From Silvanigrellaceae bacterium (GTDB taxonomy: Bacteria; Bdellovibrionota_B; Oligoflexia; Silvanigrellales; CANGWC01): 44,236 nucleotides of DNA. The first letter of the stretch is position 1; every line of letters begins with the position of its first letter. Made by a program: the position numbers and the translations under genes. The stretch covers positions 1 to 44,236 of the forward strand of contig CANGWC010000004.1 in assembly GCA_947457515.1 (NCBI GenBank), given 5' to 3'. Below are positions 33,589-44,187 of the stretch, piece by piece. The notes below the pieces were generated by a model. The model saw nothing but the letters and a program-made list of their open reading frames with translations, had not been told where the DNA came from and did no database searches.

Positions 33589-34332
33589 ATGAGGAGGTAT
33601 ATTCATAAACTTTCTTCTTTACACAGTACACCCAACGATCTTTGGAAGTTTTCTACTTTTTCGTTAGTTTTAATTTTAATTATATATTATGATAATGTTA
33701 AAAAACAGGAAGTAGAAACTCGCACAAGAGAAGAAGTAGAATTTGTGATTAAAACTCATACAGGTGAAATTGAAATGTGTTACCAAAAAAAATTTCAAGG
33801 TAACAAAGATATTGAGGGTAAATTCAAGGTTAAATTTATCATTGATTCAACAGGGAGAGCAGCTTCTCTTTCTATTTCAGAATCAGATTTTAATGATTAT
33901 GGATTAGAAAATTGTGTTTCATCTGCTTTGCAAAGTTGGCAATTCCTGAAGCCTAGGGGGAAGAACGGTTCTGCTAATATTTCTTATGTATTTAAATTCA
34001 GTCCCGTAAAAGAATCCATTCTTAAAAAAGAAGAAGGAGTTCTCACAAAACAAGAAATCGAATCTGTGATCAAGGCTCATTTGAGTGAAATTAAAATTTG
34101 TTACGAAAGAAGTCTTCAAGGTAACAAAGGACTTTCTGGTAAGATCGTGACTCAATTTGTCATTGGATCAGATGGAAGAGTAACTTCCGCCTCTATTTCA
34201 GAGTCAGGAGTTCATCTTTCTGAATTAGAAAATTGTGTGATATCTAATTTAAAACTTTGGGAATTTCCTAAACCTAGAGGGAATGGATCTGTAAATGTTT
34301 ATTATCCATTCACGTTCTCTCCTCCAAATTAA
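33589..34332 (+). CDS. Membrane-anchored protein with two AgmX/TonB-like C-terminal domains
   Basis: 247 residues: a short cytoplasmic tail, one membrane helix (FSTFSLVLILIIYY) and two copies of the domain that ends GltG. The first (about 48-140) is diverged (EEVEFVIKTHTGEIEMCYQK). The second (about 150-247) is almost identical to GltG, including at the DNA level (34057-34190 against 33299-33432), so it is a recent duplication. There is no FHA domain and no long linker, so it is a short-reach variant that could compete with GltG for the same partner. The start is odd: AGGAGG forms codons 2-3 of this frame and no ribosome-binding site precedes the ATG. Confidence 0.82.
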   Translation: MRRYIHKLSSLHSTPNDLWKFSTFSLVLILIIYYDNVKKQEVETRTREEVEFVIKTHTGEIEMCYQKKFQGNKDIEGKFKVKFIIDSTGRAASLSISESDFNDYGLENCVSSALQSWQFLKPRGKNGSANISYVFKFSPVKESILKKEEGVLTKQEIESVIKAHLSEIKICYERSLQGNKGLSGKIVTQFVIGSDGRVTSASISESGVHLSELENCVISNLKLWEFPKPRGNGSVNVYYPFTFSPPN

Positions 34333-34333
34333 T

Positions 34334-34927
34334 ATGATCTCAAAAACTTTAATTTTAATGGCTCTTCTCAGTCACTGCGTATTCCTAAGTCCCCATGAAA
34401 AATCTTCCGAGCCTTTTACCAACGAAGGTTTTATTGATGATCTTCCTCTAGAAGAAGAATCACTTCAGCCTCCTAAAGAAACCTATCAAGAACCTCTTAA
34501 AATCAGTCCCCATAAACAAAGACTTTTATGGCCATTACCTAAGGGAGTTGTCACAAGTCACTTCGGAGTGAGAGGTCCTAGAATTCATGGAGGTACAGAT
34601 ATTTCTGCTCCTAAAGGAACTCCAGTTTTTGCATCGTGGGATGGAGAAGTGATTTTCTCTGGTCGTAAAGGATCTTATGGTAAGGCTATGGTTATTAAAC
34701 ATCGCTTTGGATATACCCTTTATGGTCATTTACACCGCACTCTAAAACGTAAAGGTACCAAAGTTAAAGTAGGTGATCTGATCGCTGAAGTGGGTGCAAC
34801 GGGAAGAGCAACAGGACCCCATCTTCATTTTGAAGTCAGAAGTCTTACTGGGAAACCCTATAACCCTTTAGCACTTCTTCCCCAGGGAGATGGATTAGAT
34901 ATTGGGGATAAGATCCCCGGGAGATAG
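34334..34927 (+). CDS. M23-family (LytM) peptidoglycan endopeptidase, secreted
   Basis: 197 residues from ATG 34334; an in-frame upstream start lies inside the previous gene and before the signal peptide. The signal is ISKTLILMALLSHCVFLS. After an acidic linker the LytM domain (about 60-185) has all zinc ligands: H85 and D89 in RIHGGTD, and H163-L-H165 in GPHLHFEVR; GHLHR is also present. It should cut peptide cross-bridges, perhaps opening the wall for the envelope machine encoded upstream. The last 13 codons (QGDGLDIGDKIPGR end) are repeated in near-identical form 488 bases downstream, beyond the XRE gene. Confidence 0.92.
   Translation: MISKTLILMALLSHCVFLSPHEKSSEPFTNEGFIDDLPLEEESLQPPKETYQEPLKISPHKQRLLWPLPKGVVTSHFGVRGPRIHGGTDISAPKGTPVFASWDGEVIFSGRKGSYGKAMVIKHRFGYTLYGHLHRTLKRKGTKVKVGDLIAEVGATGRATGPHLHFEVRSLTGKPYNPLALLPQGDGLDIGDKIPGR
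34882..34920. repeat. Direct repeat, left copy (3' end of the M23 gene)
   Basis: 39 bases beginning CCAGGGAGATGGATTAGATA. The same sequence, with one substitution and one missing base, recurs at 35370-35407. The two copies bracket the XRE gene, like attL/attR of a small integrated segment. The repeat contains a small hairpin, GGGGAT-AAG-ATCCCC. Confidence 0.85.
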
Positions 34928-35042
34928 ATTAGCAGTCAAATAGAATAATTCAATAAAGTTAGATATTTAAATAAAGATAAAAAATAAACAATACCGATTG
35001 ATTTGGTTAATGCTTATAGAGATCAAAGAAAGGGTAAAATAT

Positions 35043-35345
35043 ATGGTATTTCCTAACGAAAACGATCTTAAACTCATTCGAGAAAAATTAGAGAAAGCAG
35101 AGCCCTCACATGTGCTTTCCGATGATGCATCTAAATCAGATATTTTGAAGTACAAACTTTGTAAGAAATTTGTTGTGTATATAAAGAAAAACAATATCAC
35201 TCAGGCGCAATTAGCTGAGAAATTAAAAATAGATCCAGCTCGAATTAATGAAATTATAAAGTACCGCATTCATCTTTTTACTGTTGATAGACTGATGAAT
35301 CTTGTAGAAAAAATTGATCCAGAATTGAAGATAGAGGTTGCATAG
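35043..35345 (+). CDS. XRE/HTH_37-type helix-turn-helix protein (antitoxin-like)
   Basis: 100 residues from ATG 35043, which has AAAGGG about nine bases upstream; an in-frame upstream ATG at 35010 and earlier starts lack this. The helix-turn-helix is ITQAQLAEKLKIDPARINEI, followed by LFTVDRLMNLVEKIDPELKIEV, the usual end of HigA/MqsA-like and HTH_37 proteins. These are commonly antitoxins of type II modules. No toxin gene is present beside it. Only a 22-codon open stretch (TIPIDLVNAYRDQRKGKIYG...) ends just past its ATG in another frame. The gene lies between two copies of the M23 3' end, suggesting arrival as a small cassette. Confidence 0.85.
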   Translation: MVFPNENDLKLIREKLEKAEPSHVLSDDASKSDILKYKLCKKFVVYIKKNNITQAQLAEKLKIDPARINEIIKYRIHLFTVDRLMNLVEKIDPELKIEVA

Positions 35346-35369
35346 ATAACAAAGTAGCATGCAATTGAT

Positions 35370-35407
35370 CCAGGGAGATGGATTAGATATTGGGAATAAG
35401 ATCCCGG
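35370..35407. repeat. Direct repeat, right copy (displaced M23 3' end)
   Basis: 38 bases that match 34882-34920 at about 37 positions. Read in the M23 frame it encodes QGDGLDIGNKIPAL and then TAA (35413-35415), an intact alternative C-terminus. That is the pattern expected when an element inserts at a gene's 3' end and carries a replacement end. Confidence 0.85.
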
Positions 35408-35415
35408 CTCTTTAA

Positions 35416-35433
35416 GCAATCGCTAAAATAAGA
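35416..35433. repeat. Short direct repeat (copy 1 of 2)
   Basis: GCAATCGCTAAAATAAGA. It recurs with one difference at 35482-35499, just before the end of the convergent AAA_4-type gene. A weaker relative follows the left M23 repeat (GCAGTCAAATAGAATAA, from 34931). Confidence 0.6.
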
Positions 35434-35481
35434 AAACTTAATAATTACGATAATTTAATAAAATACTGGGCTGAAATAAAG

Positions 35482-35499
35482 GCAATCACTAAAATAAGA
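35482..35499. repeat. Short direct repeat (copy 2 of 2)
   Basis: GCAATCACTAAAATAAGA, 66 bases from its partner and directly abutting the stop codon of the gene at 35500. It may mark another junction of the same insertion history. Confidence 0.6.
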
Positions 35500-36525
35500 T
35501 TAGGCCCAAAAAGGAATGTATCTTGCAAATTTTCGAGTAGATCCTGAGGACTCATCGGCTTTGATCAAACCTTTTTCAAGAGCCATGGTGATAATACGAG
35601 ATATAGAAGCACTTTGAGTTTCGGATACTCCAAATCGATCTCTTAAAGTTTGATTTGTCATAGCTTTTGCTGAAAGCCATGACAAGCAACAGTGTTGATA
35701 ACAAGATCGAACTCTTTCACTCCGATCCATAGATTCAAAAGGTTTATGTCCAAAGACCACAACTAGGGTTCTTCTAAAGATCGTTCGAAAATCAAGGGGA
35801 GGTAACTGATGACTCTCTGCAGATTGAATGATCTTATTGATTCCGCTTCCTATTTTTTCACAGATGCCCATTCTCCGAAGAAGAGAAGCTATTTTCTCAT
35901 TTCGAGATTCGTACCCATCGATGAGTCGCTCTGTAGGGACAGTGGATTCTCCAGGATTAGAAATTTCTACTCGATGGGAGTAAATTTCGATCATGACAGA
36001 CGCTCCAGTAATATTGAAGTCTTGATGAATTAAAGCATTAGCAATGAGTTCTCTGATGATGATTTCAGGAATCAAAATCAATCCTTTTCTTAAACCACTT
36101 ACAATGACTTCACTTTGAGGAAGTTGAGCCATGGTAGATTTGATAAGGTTTTCAAATCCACAGGCATACCCGGTTAAAGAAATCTCTTCGCGTTTTGTAT
36201 GGGTTTTTGAATCTCCAGTATAGACAATAATACGAGGAGCTTTTCTGGCAATATCTTTAAAGTCTGAAAGGTTCTTAGCAAAGAGTAACGCTCCAAATCT
36301 TGTAATATTATAATCATCTTCACTGCGTGTAATCATGTCTTCAGAGATGAGTTTTTCAAGCACTGCTTCCTGTGTTTTAGGATAAGGCAATTTCAGAAGT
36401 GTGAAAAAAGACTGAGTGTCTAATAGCTCAATAACTTCATCAGAAGTGATCCCTGTTTTCGATACTTCCTCTAACCAGCTTAAAGTTCCCTTTTCAAAGA
36501 TCGAGTTCACTCTATTTTCACTCAT
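35500..36525 (-). CDS. RecG-like/AlbA_2-family regulator lacking the AlbA_2 domain (HATPase_c_4 + winged helix)
   Basis: 341 residues from ATG 36523-36525 (MSENRVNSIFEKG); an in-frame ATG 23 codons earlier is possible. The core is the HATPase_c_4 module: IIIRELIANALIHQDFNITG, then EIYSHRVEISNPGESTVP, and ERLIDGYESRNEKIASLLRR followed by MGICEKIGSGI. A C-terminal winged-helix segment follows (RDRFGVSETQSASISRIITM). Relatives normally begin with an AlbA_2/Schlafen-like domain of about 110 residues; here the protein starts just upstream of the 'EVIELLDTQSFFTLLKLPYP' segment and that domain is not seen. It is probably a transcriptional regulator, often found on mobile DNA. It lies beside the repeat-flanked XRE gene. 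Confidence 0.82.
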   Translation of the reverse strand: MSENRVNSIFEKGTLSWLEEVSKTGITSDEVIELLDTQSFFTLLKLPYPKTQEAVLEKLISEDMITRSEDDYNITRFGALLFAKNLSDFKDIARKAPRIIVYTGDSKTHTKREEISLTGYACGFENLIKSTMAQLPQSEVIVSGLRKGLILIPEIIIRELIANALIHQDFNITGASVMIEIYSHRVEISNPGESTVPTERLIDGYESRNEKIASLLRRMGICEKIGSGINKIIQSAESHQLPPLDFRTIFRRTLVVVFGHKPFESMDRSERVRSCYQHCCLSWLSAKAMTNQTLRDRFGVSETQSASISRIITMALEKGLIKADESSGSTRKFARYIPFWA

Positions 36526-36703
36526 CTTATTTCTTGCTCCACAGGAATTTTTACATAAAGAATCAAAATTTGGCATTTGAACTGAGTGAATCAACTTACC
36601 ATGCTGAAAGTTGATATATTTTAGAGATTATAGTAAATTAAATAATAAATTTCAATGGGTTATAATGTATTTTAGGGATGTGAATGAACCAAAATATGAA
36701 TCA

Positions 36704-36728
36704 TTTGAGTGATTTTCAATCACTCAAA
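36704..36728. promoter_or_regulatory. Perfect 11-bp inverted repeat with 3-base loop
   Basis: The arms are TTTGAGTGATT and its exact complement around TTC. No U-run follows on either strand in the right place, so it is more likely a protein-binding site or RNA hairpin in a leader than an intrinsic terminator. Confidence 0.5.
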
Positions 36729-36808
36729 AAGAGACATGTTGCTTCATCTTGAAGCAGTCATATTCATCTTCTTGTGAACGTTGAAAAAACGTCAAAAAAT
36801 AGAGAATC

Positions 36809-36831
36809 TTATCCACAAAATTCGTGGATAA
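36809..36831. promoter_or_regulatory. Facing pair of DnaA-box-like sites
   Basis: TTATCCACA (36809-36817) is a perfect consensus DnaA box. CGTGGATAA (36823-36831) is its inverted partner with one mismatch (TTATCCACG). Five bases separate them. They could bind DnaA for gene regulation or titration. No other boxes, AT-rich unwinding element or dnaA gene were seen here, so this is not called an origin. Confidence 0.5.
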
Positions 36832-36904
36832 CCATTCCTCTTCCACTTGATATAGTGGGTATCGATAAATTGAAGCACTAGATTTCCTATGCTACCTTCT
36901 AATC

Positions 36905-38026
36905 ATGAAAAATTCTTCTCTTATTCTTATGACCCTAGGTTGTATTACCTTAGGATCTATTATTGGGGCATCAGCTACCTTAACTCTTGTCAAAGCTTCT
37001 CCTGTGGAAAGTAAACAGGAGGTCATAGCGGAACCTCAAGGATCTTGTTCTGCTAAAACAGTTTCTGAAGATATCCTCAGCATCAAAAACGTACCTTTAA
37101 AAGAAAATGATCTACCTTTAGATACTCAAGATGCATTGCATCAAGTGCGTAGTCAGTCTTTAGAAAGTGAAGAACAAATCTTAAAAGAACTGGCACTGAG
37201 AATTGTTCTTAGCAAGACATCTGTTAAGCCTTCAACTCCTTTGAGTAACATTCCTTCTTTAAAGTCACTGTTACCTGTTCCTAAAATCAGTTCCGATGAA
37301 CTTCGTGCTTTCTACGAAAAAAACAAAGCATCTCTTCCTCCTAATGTCTCTTTTGATCAAGTCAAAGGTCAGATGGAAAATTACATCGCTCAACAAAAAA
37401 CGATCCAAGTCGCTCAACAAAAAATTCAAGAGTTAGAAGATCAAAAAGCATTTAAAGTAAATCTTAAAACTCCCGTAGCCCCACTCATTGAAATAGATAC
37501 CTCTTCTTATCCTTTTAAAGGACCTAAGGATGCTCCTCATACTCTCATAGGAGTATCAGACTATATGTGTCCGCATTGTCGGAGTGTAAAGCCTCAAATA
37601 GAGGAGCTTTTGAAGAAACATCCTGATAAAATCAAATACGTTCAGATTAATTTTCCATTAGATATTAAAGGACTTAGCGGAATCTTAATTCAAGGTTCTA
37701 TCTGTGCTCAAAAAGAAAGCATGGAAGCTTTCTGGAAATATCATGCTAAAGCTTATGAAATCTCCTTTGAAGCTTTAAAACCAGTCTCTCCTAATCAGCG
37801 TAAAGAATTTATCAATCAAGCGATGACTATTGCTCAAAATGTAGGCTTAGATCTTCCTAAATTTAAAGCTTGTATTGATAAACCAGAAGTTCAAAAACAA
37901 GTTCAAAAAACACTAGAAAGTCTTACAGATATTGGGATTTCTGCAACACCTACATTCTACTTAGATAACCGTAAGCTCATTCCTTCTCAACAAGGCCTTA
38001 TTACTTCCGTTGAGCAAAAACTCTAG
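36905..38026 (+). CDS. DsbA-family disulphide oxidoreductase with SurA-like N-terminal region
   Basis: 373 residues with an N-terminal membrane or signal segment (LMTLGCITLGSIIGASATLTL). The middle (about 75-190) is helical and resembles the chaperone part of SurA/PpiC proteins (ISSDELRAFYEKNKASLPPN, then QVKGQMENYIAQQ). The C-terminal domain (about 200-373) is a DsbA-like thioredoxin fold with active-site C222-P-H-C225 and the cis-Pro loop SATPTFYLDN. It should form or shuffle disulphides in secreted proteins. The next genes encode very cysteine-rich surface proteins, which are plausible clients. The promoter region carries the DnaA-box pair. Confidence 0.9.
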   Translation: MKNSSLILMTLGCITLGSIIGASATLTLVKASPVESKQEVIAEPQGSCSAKTVSEDILSIKNVPLKENDLPLDTQDALHQVRSQSLESEEQILKELALRIVLSKTSVKPSTPLSNIPSLKSLLPVPKISSDELRAFYEKNKASLPPNVSFDQVKGQMENYIAQQKTIQVAQQKIQELEDQKAFKVNLKTPVAPLIEIDTSSYPFKGPKDAPHTLIGVSDYMCPHCRSVKPQIEELLKKHPDKIKYVQINFPLDIKGLSGILIQGSICAQKESMEAFWKYHAKAYEISFEALKPVSPNQRKEFINQAMTIAQNVGLDLPKFKACIDKPEVQKQVQKTLESLTDIGISATPTFYLDNRKLIPSQQGLITSVEQKL

Positions 38027-38115: not shown

Positions 38116-40761
38116 ATGCTTCTGATTCTTTTTGGTCTTATTTTTTGCACAGATAATCCCCCTGCAATCAGGATTCCTGTCTTAAAAAATAAACAGTCTA
38201 TCAGTTCTAACGTTCCTTTTAGACAAACACATACTGATGAAATCGCAATTAATGATAGCAGATGTTTGCAAGGTGGACTTCGTATTAGCACTTGGATTGA
38301 TCAACAAATCAATGATGATATTTACACTGAAGGAGTGGATTCAGACTATGCCGAGAAAGTGATTTGTTTTAAAAATCTTGCCACATCAACACCTATTTTA
38401 ACGAAACCAGGAGATTTTAAAATCATCGCAACAGATATCGCAACAAATGATACCGATTGTCCTCAAGGCGGAAAGAGATATGAGTCTTTTATAGATGTTG
38501 ATGGTAATAGTCTTTATGATTCTACTATAGATACTCAATATAATTATAAGAAAATCTGTACAGGTTTGAGTGGAACAGCCTCATTATCAGGTTCTAATGG
38601 AGGTATTGTAGCCACAGTTTTAACGACGGGAGATGCACAATGTCCTACAGGAGGATTTAAAGTCGATCTCTTCACTGATGTGAATGGAAATGGAACTTAT
38701 GAATCCACCATAGATACTTTCCACAGTGTAAGATACATATGTCATGGATCTCCTAGCGTCACTATTAACTCTACAGTTCCACTCAATGATAGTACGTGCC
38801 TTAATGGAGGCACTCAGATCAATACTTTTACGGATATGAATAATAATGGAACCTATGAATCCACAATAGATACAAACAGTCGTATTTATAAGATCTGTCA
38901 TGGACAAAAAGCTTTAGCTTTAACAACAACTCTCACTTCAGGAGATACAACTTGTGCCGCTGGAGGAACTCAACTGACGACTTGTGTTGATAGTAATGGA
39001 GATAATACCTGTACATCAGGAACAGATCTCAATTACGCCACTCAAAAAATCTGCAATGGACCAGGAGCTGGTTTTATACTCACTTATGAGAACCCTGGAG
39101 CTAATTGTAAAGCAGGAGGATACAGGTCAGAACGATTCCAAGATAATAATAACAATGCTATTTATGATTTAGGAACTGATACAGGATATAGCAGTACTTA
39201 TATTTGTAATGGTTTGAACTGGCTATCCCGGAGCACTTCTTTCACATCGGGTAATGGAACAGCTGCAGATAATACGGCTTGTTTAACAGGAGGTGTGCGT
39301 TTTGAATTTGGATACGATCATGTGAATTCCAGTAATGGAGCTTATTTTGTAGGAACAGACGGAGTCTTAGATACGATAGAGATTGTATCAACAGCTACAG
39401 CGTATTCTTGTAATGGATCCAATGGTGTTGCGGGACCTTTCATCTCTAAATTTCAAAATGATAGTGAAGGAACAAACGCAAGATTCTATTGGGAAATGAT
39501 CTCTGCTGATGGAGCACAACCTAATGTAAAACTTGCTTATGCTTCTACGAAAGCAGCCATTCAAGCATGGAACTGTGAAAGTTCCTTAGCTGGAGTGACT
39601 GTAGTCACAGACTTTTCTAGTTGTACAGATACGACTTATAGAACAGCAGCAAGTGGATCTTTGAATTCTTTTTCTAAGTGTGGATTTGATCTGACATCAG
39701 CACCTTTTAGTACTGCACCATGGGACTATCGTTACTTTAAAGTTTGTGCTCAAAATTCAACTTCTCCCAATACTCAAACTTTGAGTAGTTTTAGGGTGGC
39801 AGGCAATGTTCCCAGTGGAATGGTCATGGTGCATTTAGATGATTGGCCAGTGCATGAGTTTTCTAATACAAGCATCAATCCTTATACTTACGCTATTGAT
39901 AAATGGGAGCCTTACTTAAGTGGTGGAGCTATCACCAATGGGGTACCTGGAGGTTGTACCAATACCAGTTGTGTTTCTGCATCCACAGGAATTCTAGACA
40001 GTTCTTCAGGACAAACCCCCAGTGTCAGTATGGATTGGTATGCCAGTCGTCAGGGTTGTGCAAACAGGATAAACGCAGCTTATACAGGAGTATCAACTTC
40101 CCGCACTATTCATATGCAAACAGAGCTAGAACAATTTGTAGCTAATTATGGAACACCAGATGAATACATATCAGCCTATGGTAACCAAATCACTGGAAAT
40201 ACAGTTAATGTTATAACTTCTGGATACCAAGGGTGTAATATCGATCTTAAACATAATAGTTTAGACAATACATATAATGGGAATGAATTTTACTTAACGG
40301 GAGATATCAGTACTCAAAATTGTATTTCTCGTTATGGAGCTAGAGATCTCATCGGTAATTTCTCTGAATATAATGATGGTTATTATGATAATCTTAATAA
40401 TAATACCACAAGAATAAAATCTATTTACTGGGGTACTTCAGATATAGTTTCCACAAATATTGATGATACTACTTTAGGATATTTATTTCCCATAACAGGA
40501 GGTCTTCAAAGATATCTTATTAGAGATTGGGATTATCAAAATCTTCTTCCTCAAACCTATACATTAGGAGGGATCCCCTCTCTTAAATTCTTTGGAGATG
40601 AATTTGTATTAGACAGTTCCACAGCTACTAAAGTGGCTATCAATGGCTATGGTTCCTGGAGTTATGGATCTTATCTAGGTCGTTTTGAAAAAGATCTTTC
40701 TCGTGATGCGACAACCTCAGATGTTTCTTTAAGTACGCGGTGTGCCATTCTTTCACCTTAA
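38116..40761 (+). CDS. Cys-rich repeat surface protein, array unit 1 (DUF7151-like repeats + FGE/C-type-lectin-like domain)
   Basis: 881 residues. A short hydrophobic start ends in a cysteine (LLILFGLIFC), perhaps lipidated, though the lipobox is poor. Seven repeats of about 50-65 residues follow, each with 'D-x2-C-x2-GG...D-x-(N/D)-x-(N/D)-G-x-Y...D-T-x-Y...(I/V)C-x-G' (for example CPTGGFKVDLFTDVNGNGTY). The acidic loop looks like a calcium site and the cysteine pair like a disulphide. After a fibronectin-like spacer (about 440-565), the C-terminal 310 residues resemble a degenerate formylglycine-generating-enzyme/C-type-lectin fold: GMVMVHLDDWPVHEF, YTYAIDKWEPYLS, MDWYASRQGCANR, ISRYGARDLIGNFSEYNDGY. 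It is likely an adhesin or other binding protein on the cell surface. Confidence 0.8.
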   Translation: MLLILFGLIFCTDNPPAIRIPVLKNKQSISSNVPFRQTHTDEIAINDSRCLQGGLRISTWIDQQINDDIYTEGVDSDYAEKVICFKNLATSTPILTKPGDFKIIATDIATNDTDCPQGGKRYESFIDVDGNSLYDSTIDTQYNYKKICTGLSGTASLSGSNGGIVATVLTTGDAQCPTGGFKVDLFTDVNGNGTYESTIDTFHSVRYICHGSPSVTINSTVPLNDSTCLNGGTQINTFTDMNNNGTYESTIDTNSRIYKICHGQKALALTTTLTSGDTTCAAGGTQLTTCVDSNGDNTCTSGTDLNYATQKICNGPGAGFILTYENPGANCKAGGYRSERFQDNNNNAIYDLGTDTGYSSTYICNGLNWLSRSTSFTSGNGTAADNTACLTGGVRFEFGYDHVNSSNGAYFVGTDGVLDTIEIVSTATAYSCNGSNGVAGPFISKFQNDSEGTNARFYWEMISADGAQPNVKLAYASTKAAIQAWNCESSLAGVTVVTDFSSCTDTTYRTAASGSLNSFSKCGFDLTSAPFSTAPWDYRYFKVCAQNSTSPNTQTLSSFRVAGNVPSGMVMVHLDDWPVHEFSNTSINPYTYAIDKWEPYLSGGAITNGVPGGCTNTSCVSASTGILDSSSGQTPSVSMDWYASRQGCANRINAAYTGVSTSRTIHMQTELEQFVANYGTPDEYISAYGNQITGNTVNVITSGYQGCNIDLKHNSLDNTYNGNEFYLTGDISTQNCISRYGARDLIGNFSEYNDGYYDNLNNNTTRIKSIYWGTSDIVSTNIDDTTLGYLFPITGGLQRYLIRDWDYQNLLPQTYTLGGIPSLKFFGDEFVLDSSTATKVAINGYGSWSYGSYLGRFEKDLSRDATTSDVSLSTRCAILSP

Positions 40762-40866
40762 TCACTAGGAATAAAATTCCCGATATCATTAAAAATCGTC
40801 ATTAAAAATTTAAGGGAAGAATAAAGTAACTATCATAAACTCTTATTAAAATATCGATATAGAGAT
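40762..40866. repeat. Duplicated intergenic segment between array units 1 and 2
   Basis: 105 bases, matched by 105 bases at 43507-43611 with roughly 80% identity by eye. Both hold the small hairpin at the gene end (GGAAT-AAA-ATTCC, 40768-40780), the shared box AATCGTCATTAAAAA, and the block AATATCGATATAGA before the start codon. The promoter therefore duplicated with the gene. Confidence 0.7.
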
Positions 40867-43506
40867 GTGTTATTTATTTTATTTATTCTGAGTTTTTGTA
40901 TAAAGCTTGCTCCAGTAAAGCTTCCAGCGTTAGATGACGCAGAATCTTTAAAAAAAGCCGTTCCATTTAGACAGGTTCATACTGAAGAAATCCCTTTAAG
41001 TGATAGCAGATGTTTACAAGGTGGATTTCTCACAACCACATGGATAGATCAAAAAATCAATGATGATGTTTATACAGAAGGAATAGACACTGGATATACA
41101 GAAACAGTCATTTGTTTTAAAAATCTAGCGACAACAACAGCCACTATCACCAAACCTGGAGATCTCAAGATCGTGGCTACAGATCTTCCCATCAATGATC
41201 CCGACTGCCCTCAAGGAGGAAAGAAATACGAATCATTTGTCGATGTGGATGGAGACAGTATTTATAAGTCTACAGTGGATACAAATTACAATTCTAAGAA
41301 GATTTGTAATGGGCTCAATGGAACAGCATCCTTATCGGGAGCTAATGCTGTGATTGTGACAAGTGTTTTAGCTAGCGGAAGCACTCAATGTCCTGCGGGA
41401 GGGAACAAATCAGAATCTTTTACAGATATGAATGGAAATGGAACGTATGAGTCAGCAGTGGATACTTTCTATAGTGTTCGTTATACATGTAATGGATCTA
41501 ATAGTGTAACCTTAACATCCACCATAGCTTCCGGAGATAGCACTTGTACCAGTGGAGGGACTCAAGTCACCACATTTACAGATATCAATAATAACGGAAC
41601 CTATGAAGCGACCATAGACAAAAACAGTAACACTTATAAAGTCTGTAACGGACAGAAAGCTCTCGTACTTTCCACAACTCTAGCTTCCGGAGACACCACT
41701 TGCCCTGCAGGTGGGACTCAACTCACAACGTGTATTGATAGCAATGGAGATTCTAATTGCACATCGGGCCCAGATCTCAATTATGCCGTAAAGAAGATCT
41801 GTAATGGACCAGGAGCAGGATTCCTCGTTACTACAGAAAATGCAGGATCTAATTGTAGAGCCGGAGGTTACAGATTAGATCGGTTTCAAGATAATAATAG
41901 TAACGCAGTCTATGATGTGGGAACGGATACAGGTTACACAAGCACCTATATTTGTAATGGACTCAATTGGCTCTCTAAAAGTACATCCTTTACCTCTGGC
42001 AATGGGACAGCAGGAGATAATACAGCGTGTCCTGTAGGGGGAGTCAGATTTGAATTTGGATACGATCATGTGAATTCCAGTAATGGGGCTTATTTTGTAG
42101 GGACAGATGGAGTCTTAGATACGACAGAAGTCGTCGCCACAGCTACAGCTTATTCTTGTAATGGCTCCAATGGAGAAACAGCCGGGCCTTTAATCTCTAA
42201 ATTTCAAAATGACAGTGAAGGAACCAAAGCAAGGTTTTATTGGGAGATTATCAGTGCAGATGGAGCAGCACCTACGATTAAACTGGCGTACAGTTCCACA
42301 AAAGCAGGAATTCAAGCATGGAACTGTGAAAGCTCTTTAGCAGGAGTCACAGTGGTGACAGACTTTGCCAGTTGTACAGATACCACTTACAGAACAGCAG
42401 CTAGTGGAGCATTTAACTCAGACTCTAAGTGTGGCTTTGATCTCACTGCAGCGCCTTTTAGTACGGCAGCATGGGATTATCGATACTTTAAACTCTGTGT
42501 CCAAAACTCAACCAGTCCTTACAGCCAGAATCTGAGTACCTTTAGAGTTGCAGGGAATGTTCCCAATGGAATGGTCATGGTGCATTTAGATGATTGGCCA
42601 GTGCATGAGTTTGCTAATACAACAGTCGTTCCTTATACGTATGCGATTGATAAATATGAACCTTATATGAGTAGTGGCTCCATTACTAACGGAACACCAG
42701 GAACATGCACAGCTACAAATTGTATTTCTAGCAGTACAGCAACTTTAAGCAGTGCAACAACACAAACTCCTGTAACAAGCATTGATTGGTATGCCAGTCG
42801 TAAAGGATGTGCCAATAGAACGGCTGCAGGGTACACAGCAGCAGGTACACCAAGATCGATGCATCTTCAAACAGAAATGGAAGAGTTTGTAGCGAACTAT
42901 GGAACTCCAGATACAATAATTTCCAATGTAGGTGGTAATTTAAGTTATGCCTCAGTTCCCTATGCAGGTTATATGTCTTGTAATGTGGATCTTTTACATA
43001 ATTATCAAGATGTAACTTATAATGCCAATGAGTTTTTTCAAACAGGGAATGTGGCTACAAAATATTGTATTTCAAGATACGGAGCAAGAGATCTCATTGG
43101 TAACTATGGAGAATTTCTTGATGGATATTATGAAAATTTAATCAATAATACCACAAGGCAAAAATCAGTTTATTGGGGTACTTCAGACAGAGTGACGACT
43201 GTGATTAGTGATGCTAATTTGGGTTATGCTTTCCCTGTAGCAACAACTACGTTTTATGTTGCAGATTGGGATTATCAGAATCTTCTTCCCAAACCTTCCT
43301 ATGCTTTTACTTTAGGTCCAAATCAAAAGTATTTTAGTGATTATTTTTCACTGAATTTTACAGTTGCGACAAGAGTGGCAACAACCATGCAATATGGGTT
43401 AACTGGTTTTGGTTCTTTATCTGGTAGATTTTATAAGGATCTTTATTATAACGCAACAGATAATTATAATTATGGAACACCTCGATGTGCCATTGTTTCT
43501 CCTTAA
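40867..43506 (+). CDS. Cys-rich repeat surface protein, array unit 2
   Basis: 879 residues, a paralogue of unit 1 along its whole length and closest in repeats 6-7, the spacer and the beginning of the C-terminal domain. The start is GTG 40867 (LFILFILSFC...). The frame is open 14 codons further upstream and there encodes a basic stretch (KLLLKYRYRD) that would suit a signal peptide, but no standard start codon is present in it. Seven Cys/Asp-Gly repeats, then the FGE/C-type-lectin-like domain with MVMVHLDDWPVHEF, YTYAIDKYEPYMS, SIDWYASRKGCANR and ISRYGARDLIGNYGEFLDGY. The two copies differ most in the last 200 residues, as expected for a variable binding face. Confidence 0.8.
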   Translation: MLFILFILSFCIKLAPVKLPALDDAESLKKAVPFRQVHTEEIPLSDSRCLQGGFLTTTWIDQKINDDVYTEGIDTGYTETVICFKNLATTTATITKPGDLKIVATDLPINDPDCPQGGKKYESFVDVDGDSIYKSTVDTNYNSKKICNGLNGTASLSGANAVIVTSVLASGSTQCPAGGNKSESFTDMNGNGTYESAVDTFYSVRYTCNGSNSVTLTSTIASGDSTCTSGGTQVTTFTDINNNGTYEATIDKNSNTYKVCNGQKALVLSTTLASGDTTCPAGGTQLTTCIDSNGDSNCTSGPDLNYAVKKICNGPGAGFLVTTENAGSNCRAGGYRLDRFQDNNSNAVYDVGTDTGYTSTYICNGLNWLSKSTSFTSGNGTAGDNTACPVGGVRFEFGYDHVNSSNGAYFVGTDGVLDTTEVVATATAYSCNGSNGETAGPLISKFQNDSEGTKARFYWEIISADGAAPTIKLAYSSTKAGIQAWNCESSLAGVTVVTDFASCTDTTYRTAASGAFNSDSKCGFDLTAAPFSTAAWDYRYFKLCVQNSTSPYSQNLSTFRVAGNVPNGMVMVHLDDWPVHEFANTTVVPYTYAIDKYEPYMSSGSITNGTPGTCTATNCISSSTATLSSATTQTPVTSIDWYASRKGCANRTAAGYTAAGTPRSMHLQTEMEEFVANYGTPDTIISNVGGNLSYASVPYAGYMSCNVDLLHNYQDVTYNANEFFQTGNVATKYCISRYGARDLIGNYGEFLDGYYENLINNTTRQKSVYWGTSDRVTTVISDANLGYAFPVATTTFYVADWDYQNLLPKPSYAFTLGPNQKYFSDYFSLNFTVATRVATTMQYGLTGFGSLSGRFYKDLYYNATDNYNYGTPRCAIVSP

Positions 43507-43611
43507 TAACTGGGAATAAACTTCCTCATAAAAGATAAAATCGTCATTAAAAAGTTTCACTCAGAATAAAGTAACCATTATAAACTCTTACTAAAATATC
43601 GATATAGAAAT
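43507..43611. repeat. Duplicated intergenic segment between array units 2 and 3
   Basis: Counterpart of 40762-40866 and of identical length. The block AAACTCTTACTAAAATATCG is nearly unchanged. The end-of-gene hairpin is weaker (GGAA-N5-TTCC). Confidence 0.7.
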
Positions 43612-44187
43612 GTGTTACTTATTTTATTTATTCTGAGTTTTTGTATAAAGCCTGCTGCAGTAAGACTTCCTGCTATAGGTGATTCAAATATTGGATTTAA
43701 ACAGGTACATGTTGAAGAAATCCCTTTAAGTGATATCAGATGTTTACAAGGTGGATTTCTCACCACCACATGGATAGACCAAAAAATTAAAGATGATGTG
43801 TATCAAGAAGGAGTAGATACAGACTATAAAGAAACAGTAATTTGTTTTAAAAATCTAGCGACAACAACAGCCACCATCACCAAACCCGGAGATCTCAAGA
43901 TTGTGGCTACAGATCTTCCCATCAATGATCCCGACTGCCCTCAAGGAGGAAAGAAATACGAATCATTTGTCGATGTGGATGGAGACAGTATTTATAAATC
44001 CACAGTGGATACAAATTACAATTCTAAAAAGATCTGTAATGGACTGAATGGAACAGCATCCTTATCTGGAGCTAATGCAGGAGTGGTAGCCACAGCACTC
44101 AATACTGGAGATACCCAATGTCCTACAGGTGGATTTAAGCAGGGCCACCTCATGAAAATTTTTTTTGACTTAAAGCAAATATTGTGA
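43612..44187 (+). pseudogene. Array unit 3, truncated and mosaic
   Basis: It begins like unit 2 (LLILFILSFCIKPAAVRLP, GTG start) and keeps the first two repeats and the beginning of a third. Up to about 44070 it is nearly identical to unit 2. From about 44075 to 44138 it follows unit 1 instead (VVATALNTGDTQCPTGGFK against IVATVLTTGDAQCPTGGFK). After A44138 the similarity stops abruptly and the frame runs 16 unrelated codons to TGA. The product would lack five repeats and the whole C-terminal domain, so it is a broken copy, or a recombination donor. Confidence 0.75.

Follow-up and report, generated by a model that had tools for sequence, protein, structure and literature searches.

Three articles (PMC3874152, PMC3031569, PMC1643837) report insertion with long target duplication for restriction-modification genes, the duplicated stretches being long, of variable length and of the order of 100 bp. 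The same articles attribute this type of insertion to Nobusato et al. (2000, Gene 259:99) and Furuta et al. (2010, NAR 38:2428), first in Helicobacter.

How small toxin-antitoxin and defense genes move when no mobile element is visible is not settled; the locus described here, from a Silvanigrellaceae bacterium, bears on this question. The whole stretch of DNA analyzed, hereafter named the window, comprises 44,236 nucleotides. It contains an M23 peptidase gene whose 3' end is found again on the other side of a small insert. We consider it probable that a toxin-antitoxin module inserted at the 3' end of this gene and duplicated its target, and that the same process took place at least seven times in the genome.

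The repeated end of the M23 peptidase gene

The order of a GltG-like gene followed by the M23 gene is conserved among genomes of the order. An earlier note on this DNA stated that the last 39 bases of the M23 gene recur beyond the XRE gene. The repeat is real, but it comprises 36 nt, and the identity ends 10 nt short of the gene end. The two copies are identical at 35 of 36 positions (the sole mismatch is G/A at 34907/35395), with a spacing of 488 and 452 bp between them (Table 1). Their ends diverge, the left one reading ...DKIPGR-TAG and the right one ...NKIPAL-TAA. The right copy does encode an in-frame C-terminus with its own stop, as the note had described. The resulting 18-codon ORF is probably not a gene; displaced gene ends are easily mistaken for small genes.

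The idea that the same repeat might bracket other genes elsewhere was not borne out. Just two copies are present in the 1.17-Mb assembly (74% complete), which ruled out a dispersed repeat family. None of 95 other genomes contains the repeat at up to three mismatches, the exact sequence is absent from the viral contigs searched, and it was not found beside the homologous antitoxins of other genomes. No repeat pair of such quality was obtained in 100 shuffles of the window. A chance origin of the pair is excluded because of this result, the two copies in the assembly and the absence of the repeat from the 95 genomes and the viral contigs. The M23 tails of relatives are unrelated and give no pointer to the ancestral copy. 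The 17-mer of a partial third copy has three matches in the window, against 0.1 expected; this copy may be a slippage scar or the trace of an older tandem repeat. No inverted pair bounds the insert (34918-35369) as would be expected for a transposon or MITE, and a search for structured RNA in 34000-37000 gave no Rfam match.

Table 1. Features of the window locus and loci of the genome with a displaced gene end
Feature	Position	Strand	Evidence or cargo
M23 peptidase gene, host whose 3' end is duplicated	34334..34927	+	PF01551, E 1.4e-29
Left copy of 36-nt direct repeat, within M23 gene 3' end	34882..34917	+	
Partial third copy (15/17, CCCGGGAGATAGATTAG), in tandem with left copy, spanning TAG stop of M23 gene	34916..34932	+	
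3'-end remnant of putative toxin gene, in two frames (IKNKQYRLIWLM / IDLVNAYR), internal deletion	34977..35020	+	
Intact HTH_37 (XRE) antitoxin gene, 100 aa	35043..35345	+	PF13744, E 2.6e-12
18-codon ORF MQLIQGDGLDIGNKIPAL, in-frame ATG at 35359, formed by displaced M23 end	35359..35415	+	Read from sequence
Right, displaced copy of 36-nt direct repeat	35370..35405	+	
Locus C4 (window), M23 peptidase gene end			HTH_37 antitoxin and putative toxin remnant
Locus C7, 288-aa gene end			HigA/HipB-like antitoxin and lipoprotein-like gene
Locus C11, first insert, sigma-54 regulator gene end			Phd-like antitoxin; BrnA/CopG-like antitoxin with BrnT pseudogene
Locus C11, second insert, RsmB-like methyltransferase gene end	7100/10520		APH-like protein and lipoprotein-like gene
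Locus C23, TerC family gene end			418-aa protein without match
Locus C27, tatC end			Lipoprotein-like gene
Locus C42, photolyase gene end			364-aa protein, weak HTH match

In relatives of the order, a SpoU-type methyltransferase gene, a 170-aa gene and a DUF2058-like gene are located between the M23 gene and a DsbA-like gene. In the window, the corresponding stretch (34927-36905) is taken up by the antitoxin insert together with a HATPase_c_4 gene (35500-36594). Given this difference in gene content, the whole stretch has been replaced.

Several other repeats were observed in the window. An 18-nt repeat (GCAATCRCTAAAATAAGA) is located at 35416-35433 and 35482-35499, just to the right of the displaced copy; the genome contains one further occurrence, on C23, with one mismatch. 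Between 33274 and 34332, the GltG-like gene is followed directly by two more copies of its C-terminal AgmX/TonB-like domain; they make up a gene of their own (33589-34332) with two domains, and an identical 12-nt junction, AAATTAATATGA, is found at each of its ends. The region 38116-44187 is occupied by tandem paralogues of a repeat-rich protein of 881 aa, two of full length and, at the contig end, a third that is shorter; a related gene is present on contig C7.

Cargo of the window insert and its relatives

The presence of an antitoxin-like gene and the lack of an integrase in the insert, both stated in the earlier note, were confirmed, the gene product belonging to the HTH_37 family. In other genomes of the class, HTH_37 homologues are often encoded by the second gene of a two-gene module, with the toxin first and the antitoxin second. 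The upstream partner of these homologues is a protein of about 98 aa ending in YRLIWLL..YIGVVNAYRR, for which no convincing match was found in Pfam, NCBIfam, PADLOC or PDB. This putative toxin family paired with HTH_37 was observed at L130:1163-1456 and L135:268-564, as well as in L129, L127, L128 and L134. The antitoxin gene of the window has no intact toxin gene beside it, only a 3' remnant, which matches the C-terminal end of the homologous toxins (combined score of 73; 3,000 shuffles averaged 28.9 and peaked at 52, none being as high). Since the last codons of the toxin are legible directly upstream of the antitoxin, the 452-bp insert is, judging from its sequence, a decayed putative toxin-antitoxin module. 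The reading of the earlier note, a mini-element or cassette whose size is unusual, is not supported, nor does the insert look purpose-built: decay accounts at least partly for its shortness, as only the last codons of the toxin are left.

A HTH_37 paralogue on contig C11 (6794-7087) likewise has a broken toxin partner, with several stops. Stop-codon recoding as the cause of broken toxins was not favored, as both TGA and TAG stops are present. Orphan antitoxins are a known idea, and the loss of a toxin with retention of its antitoxin fits it. Phage or plasmid cargo was also considered and rejected: the window antitoxin had no match in the phages or viral contigs searched, and the toxin of a relative had none in the plasmids searched. 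The intact module in L127, from another genome, has 120-nt direct repeats (93% identity) on both sides, at 1119-1238 and 2200-2319, which are bounded by GGGGTCGGGCAC-type inverted ends and thereby resemble a MITE or REP-type element. This suggests another route by which the same module can travel.

Displaced gene ends at seven loci

The genome is a MAG (assembly of 1.17 Mb, 74% complete, 26% missing), of which 1.07 Mb was scanned for direct repeats. Gene ends were compared with 4 kb on each side, and paralogues were removed partly automatically and partly by eye. Seven non-paralogous loci, the window and six others, carry a gene 3' end that recurs downstream of the same gene, beyond an insert. 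In the six further loci, 55-180 nt were aligned with 76-95% identity, and the second copy is displaced 1.0-3.4 kb downstream; over all seven, the gapped alignments cover 36 to about 180 columns and are 76-97% identical. The repeats of the seven loci are mutually unrelated in sequence. Another candidate (C1 66855/68564) was set aside, the genes beside its two copies being paralogous and a tandem duplication being possible.

The cargo at C23, C27 and C42 is not clearly of toxin-antitoxin type. The Phd-like and HigA-like antitoxins are solitary, and the BrnT pseudogene in the first C11 insert contains one TAG nonsense stop. At the second C11 insert, the HTH_37 paralogue is located 9 bp outside the displaced end and not between the copies. 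In total, three toxin-antitoxin loci located within or next to such inserts have a broken toxin, which shows that toxins were lost repeatedly while the antitoxins were kept. The lipoprotein-like genes of C11 (L177:9575-10411) and C27 (L197:11988-12773) are alike by eye at both ends (MN-FK-SMLII..GC; ..PKWL), which suggests that related cargo may be present at two sites.

The same search detected no inverted pairs in this genome, and no non-paralogous displaced gene end in four other genomes (200 kb each, 800 kb in total). The comparison of seven loci in 1.07 Mb with zero in 0.8 Mb rests on a small sample and reaches only moderate significance. One displaced gene end of about 113 nt (roughly 98% identity) was found in 400 kb of G005, a genome from the same order, the cargo being a DUF4365 protein that matches the candidate defense family PDC-M02A. 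This insert is common to the sister genome G004, while five genomes of the same genus have no second copy of the gene end and a different neighbor there. G005 also contains an 84-nt direct repeat (C1:216715-216798 and 217457-217540, 88%) that spans the start of a transposase-like gene and is possibly an insertion of another kind. For gene 5' ends, the genome under study (G000) gave a single match, which is the opposite edge of the C7 insert. Part of the bias toward 3' ends may reflect survival, because an insert at a gene end is the least harmful.

Proposed course of events and comparison with known systems

Both repeat copies at C27 hold the end of tatC together with the end of a convergent type ISP gene, the stop codons overlapping. 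As each copy contains both convergent gene ends, each represents the old gene junction, the cargo having been inserted later. C27 therefore records its own empty site, about 61 bp of target having been duplicated when the cargo was inserted. In the far copy of C7, the stop of gene A is still 17 bp from the start of gene B. Decay falls on the displaced copies, with a frameshift at C11 and stops and lost family residues at C42. The earlier proposal that foreign DNA had entered at a gene 3' end, duplicating this end and leaving the gene whole, is strengthened by the same build at six further loci and by the empty site at C27. Taken alone, the window could also be explained by an insertion between tandem units that already existed; it is the recurrence that makes target duplication the preferred account.

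In the proposed course of events, a toxin-antitoxin module would have entered the M23 gene at its 3' end and duplicated at least 36 bp of the target, so that the M23 gene remained whole to the left of the module and the displaced copy of its end came to lie to the right. Later, the toxin gene would have been eroded to its last codons, with the antitoxin retained. Insertions of this kind, each located at a gene 3' end and duplicating a long target stretch of variable length, would have occurred at least seven times in the genome. A staggered break that was filled in, or template switching in repair or replication, could have provided the joining step, and we infer that repair- or replication-based joining is more likely than a dedicated integrase. 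We also infer that the window insert originated by the same process as the other loci, and that the events followed this order. Gene-end duplication looks like a recurrent route of gene gain in this genome. It is doubtful that it represents a so far undescribed process, in this lineage, that prefers the 3' ends of genes, duplicates between tens of bp and almost 200 bp of the end, lets the host gene survive, has no integrase in the element and preferentially brings toxin-antitoxin or defense genes whose toxins die.

The earlier note had proposed site-specific integration. A tyrosine-integrase element could have entered an att site in the M23 3' end and restored this end, its integrase and most of its cargo being lost later; the placement at a gene 3' end that is restored, the identity block of typical att length and the visible decay of the cargo would all be consistent with such an event. 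No integrase was found in the window insert or in the other six inserts, however, and seven loci with seven unrelated repeats offer no common att sequence. The repeats also differ in length, between 36 and about 180 nt. A single tyrosine recombinase was found in the assembly (74% complete, 26% of the genome missing); it is XerC/D-like and lies beside a ribD-like gene, in a housekeeping setting. Because the repeats are unrelated, the inserts lack an integrase and the sole recombinase is XerC/D-like, site-specific integration is unlikely as a common cause, and the remnant of an integrative element is also an unlikely source of the window insert.

Alternatively, a single crossover could have joined the resident gene end to a diverged donor copy on incoming circular DNA carrying the module. 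This would account for the C7 repeat, in which flanks that have diverged (85% over 68 columns) surround a perfect core of 36 nt, and for the weak similarity outside the 36-nt core in the window (local p about 0.01, global p 0.23). Most differences nevertheless look like decay of the displaced copy, as at C11 and C42, and duplication followed by drift explains them equally well. As the incoming DNA would already have had to bear each of seven different gene ends, we regard this explanation as quite improbable. The gene end could also have been present beforehand as a short tandem repeat or duplication, with the module inserted between units or a unit lost later, the insertion itself having duplicated nothing. 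The partial third copy adjoining the left copy, and the frequency of local duplications nearby (as in the GltG C-terminal domain), point in this direction. Yet two events would be required per locus, at seven loci, and a tandem duplication of gene and cargo cannot yield the C27 repeat, which spans two convergent gene ends; such an origin is very improbable. Against insertion with target duplication, our preferred explanation, stand the MAG source of the genome, the failure to find an empty-site allele of the window locus among relatives of the order (in which other genes follow the M23 gene), the cargo that is not always toxin-antitoxin, the C11 antitoxin located outside the copies and the tandem third copy, which would allow a pre-existing short repeat.

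As in tyrosine-integrase elements at the 3' ends of tRNA or protein genes, the gene end is restored on one side and a displaced copy is found on the other, but here there is no integrase, no common att sequence and a very small size. The antitoxin domain, the gene order and the toxin C-terminal motif (in the remnant) are shared with type II toxin-antitoxin systems with HTH_37, whereas the toxin of the window is destroyed and the partner family of the relatives has no confident match in Pfam, NCBIfam, PADLOC or PDB. Insertion with long target duplication fits the build best, the inserts of this genome lying at gene 3' ends and often carrying antitoxin genes. Variable long direct repeats flank the cargo in both cases (here 36 to about 180 nt), without a visible integrase or transposase, and selfish or defense-type genes are found in the cargo. 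The differences are that the loci described here carry mostly antitoxin or other cargo, belong to another lineage and lie consistently at gene 3' ends, and that the window insert is just 452 bp. Instead of restriction-modification genes, the window insert carries an HTH_37 antitoxin, and a type ISP gene is present only at C27, as a neighbor. With at least seven inserts in one genome, one of them recording its empty site, insertion with long target duplication becomes testable outside Helicobacter and restriction-modification genes.
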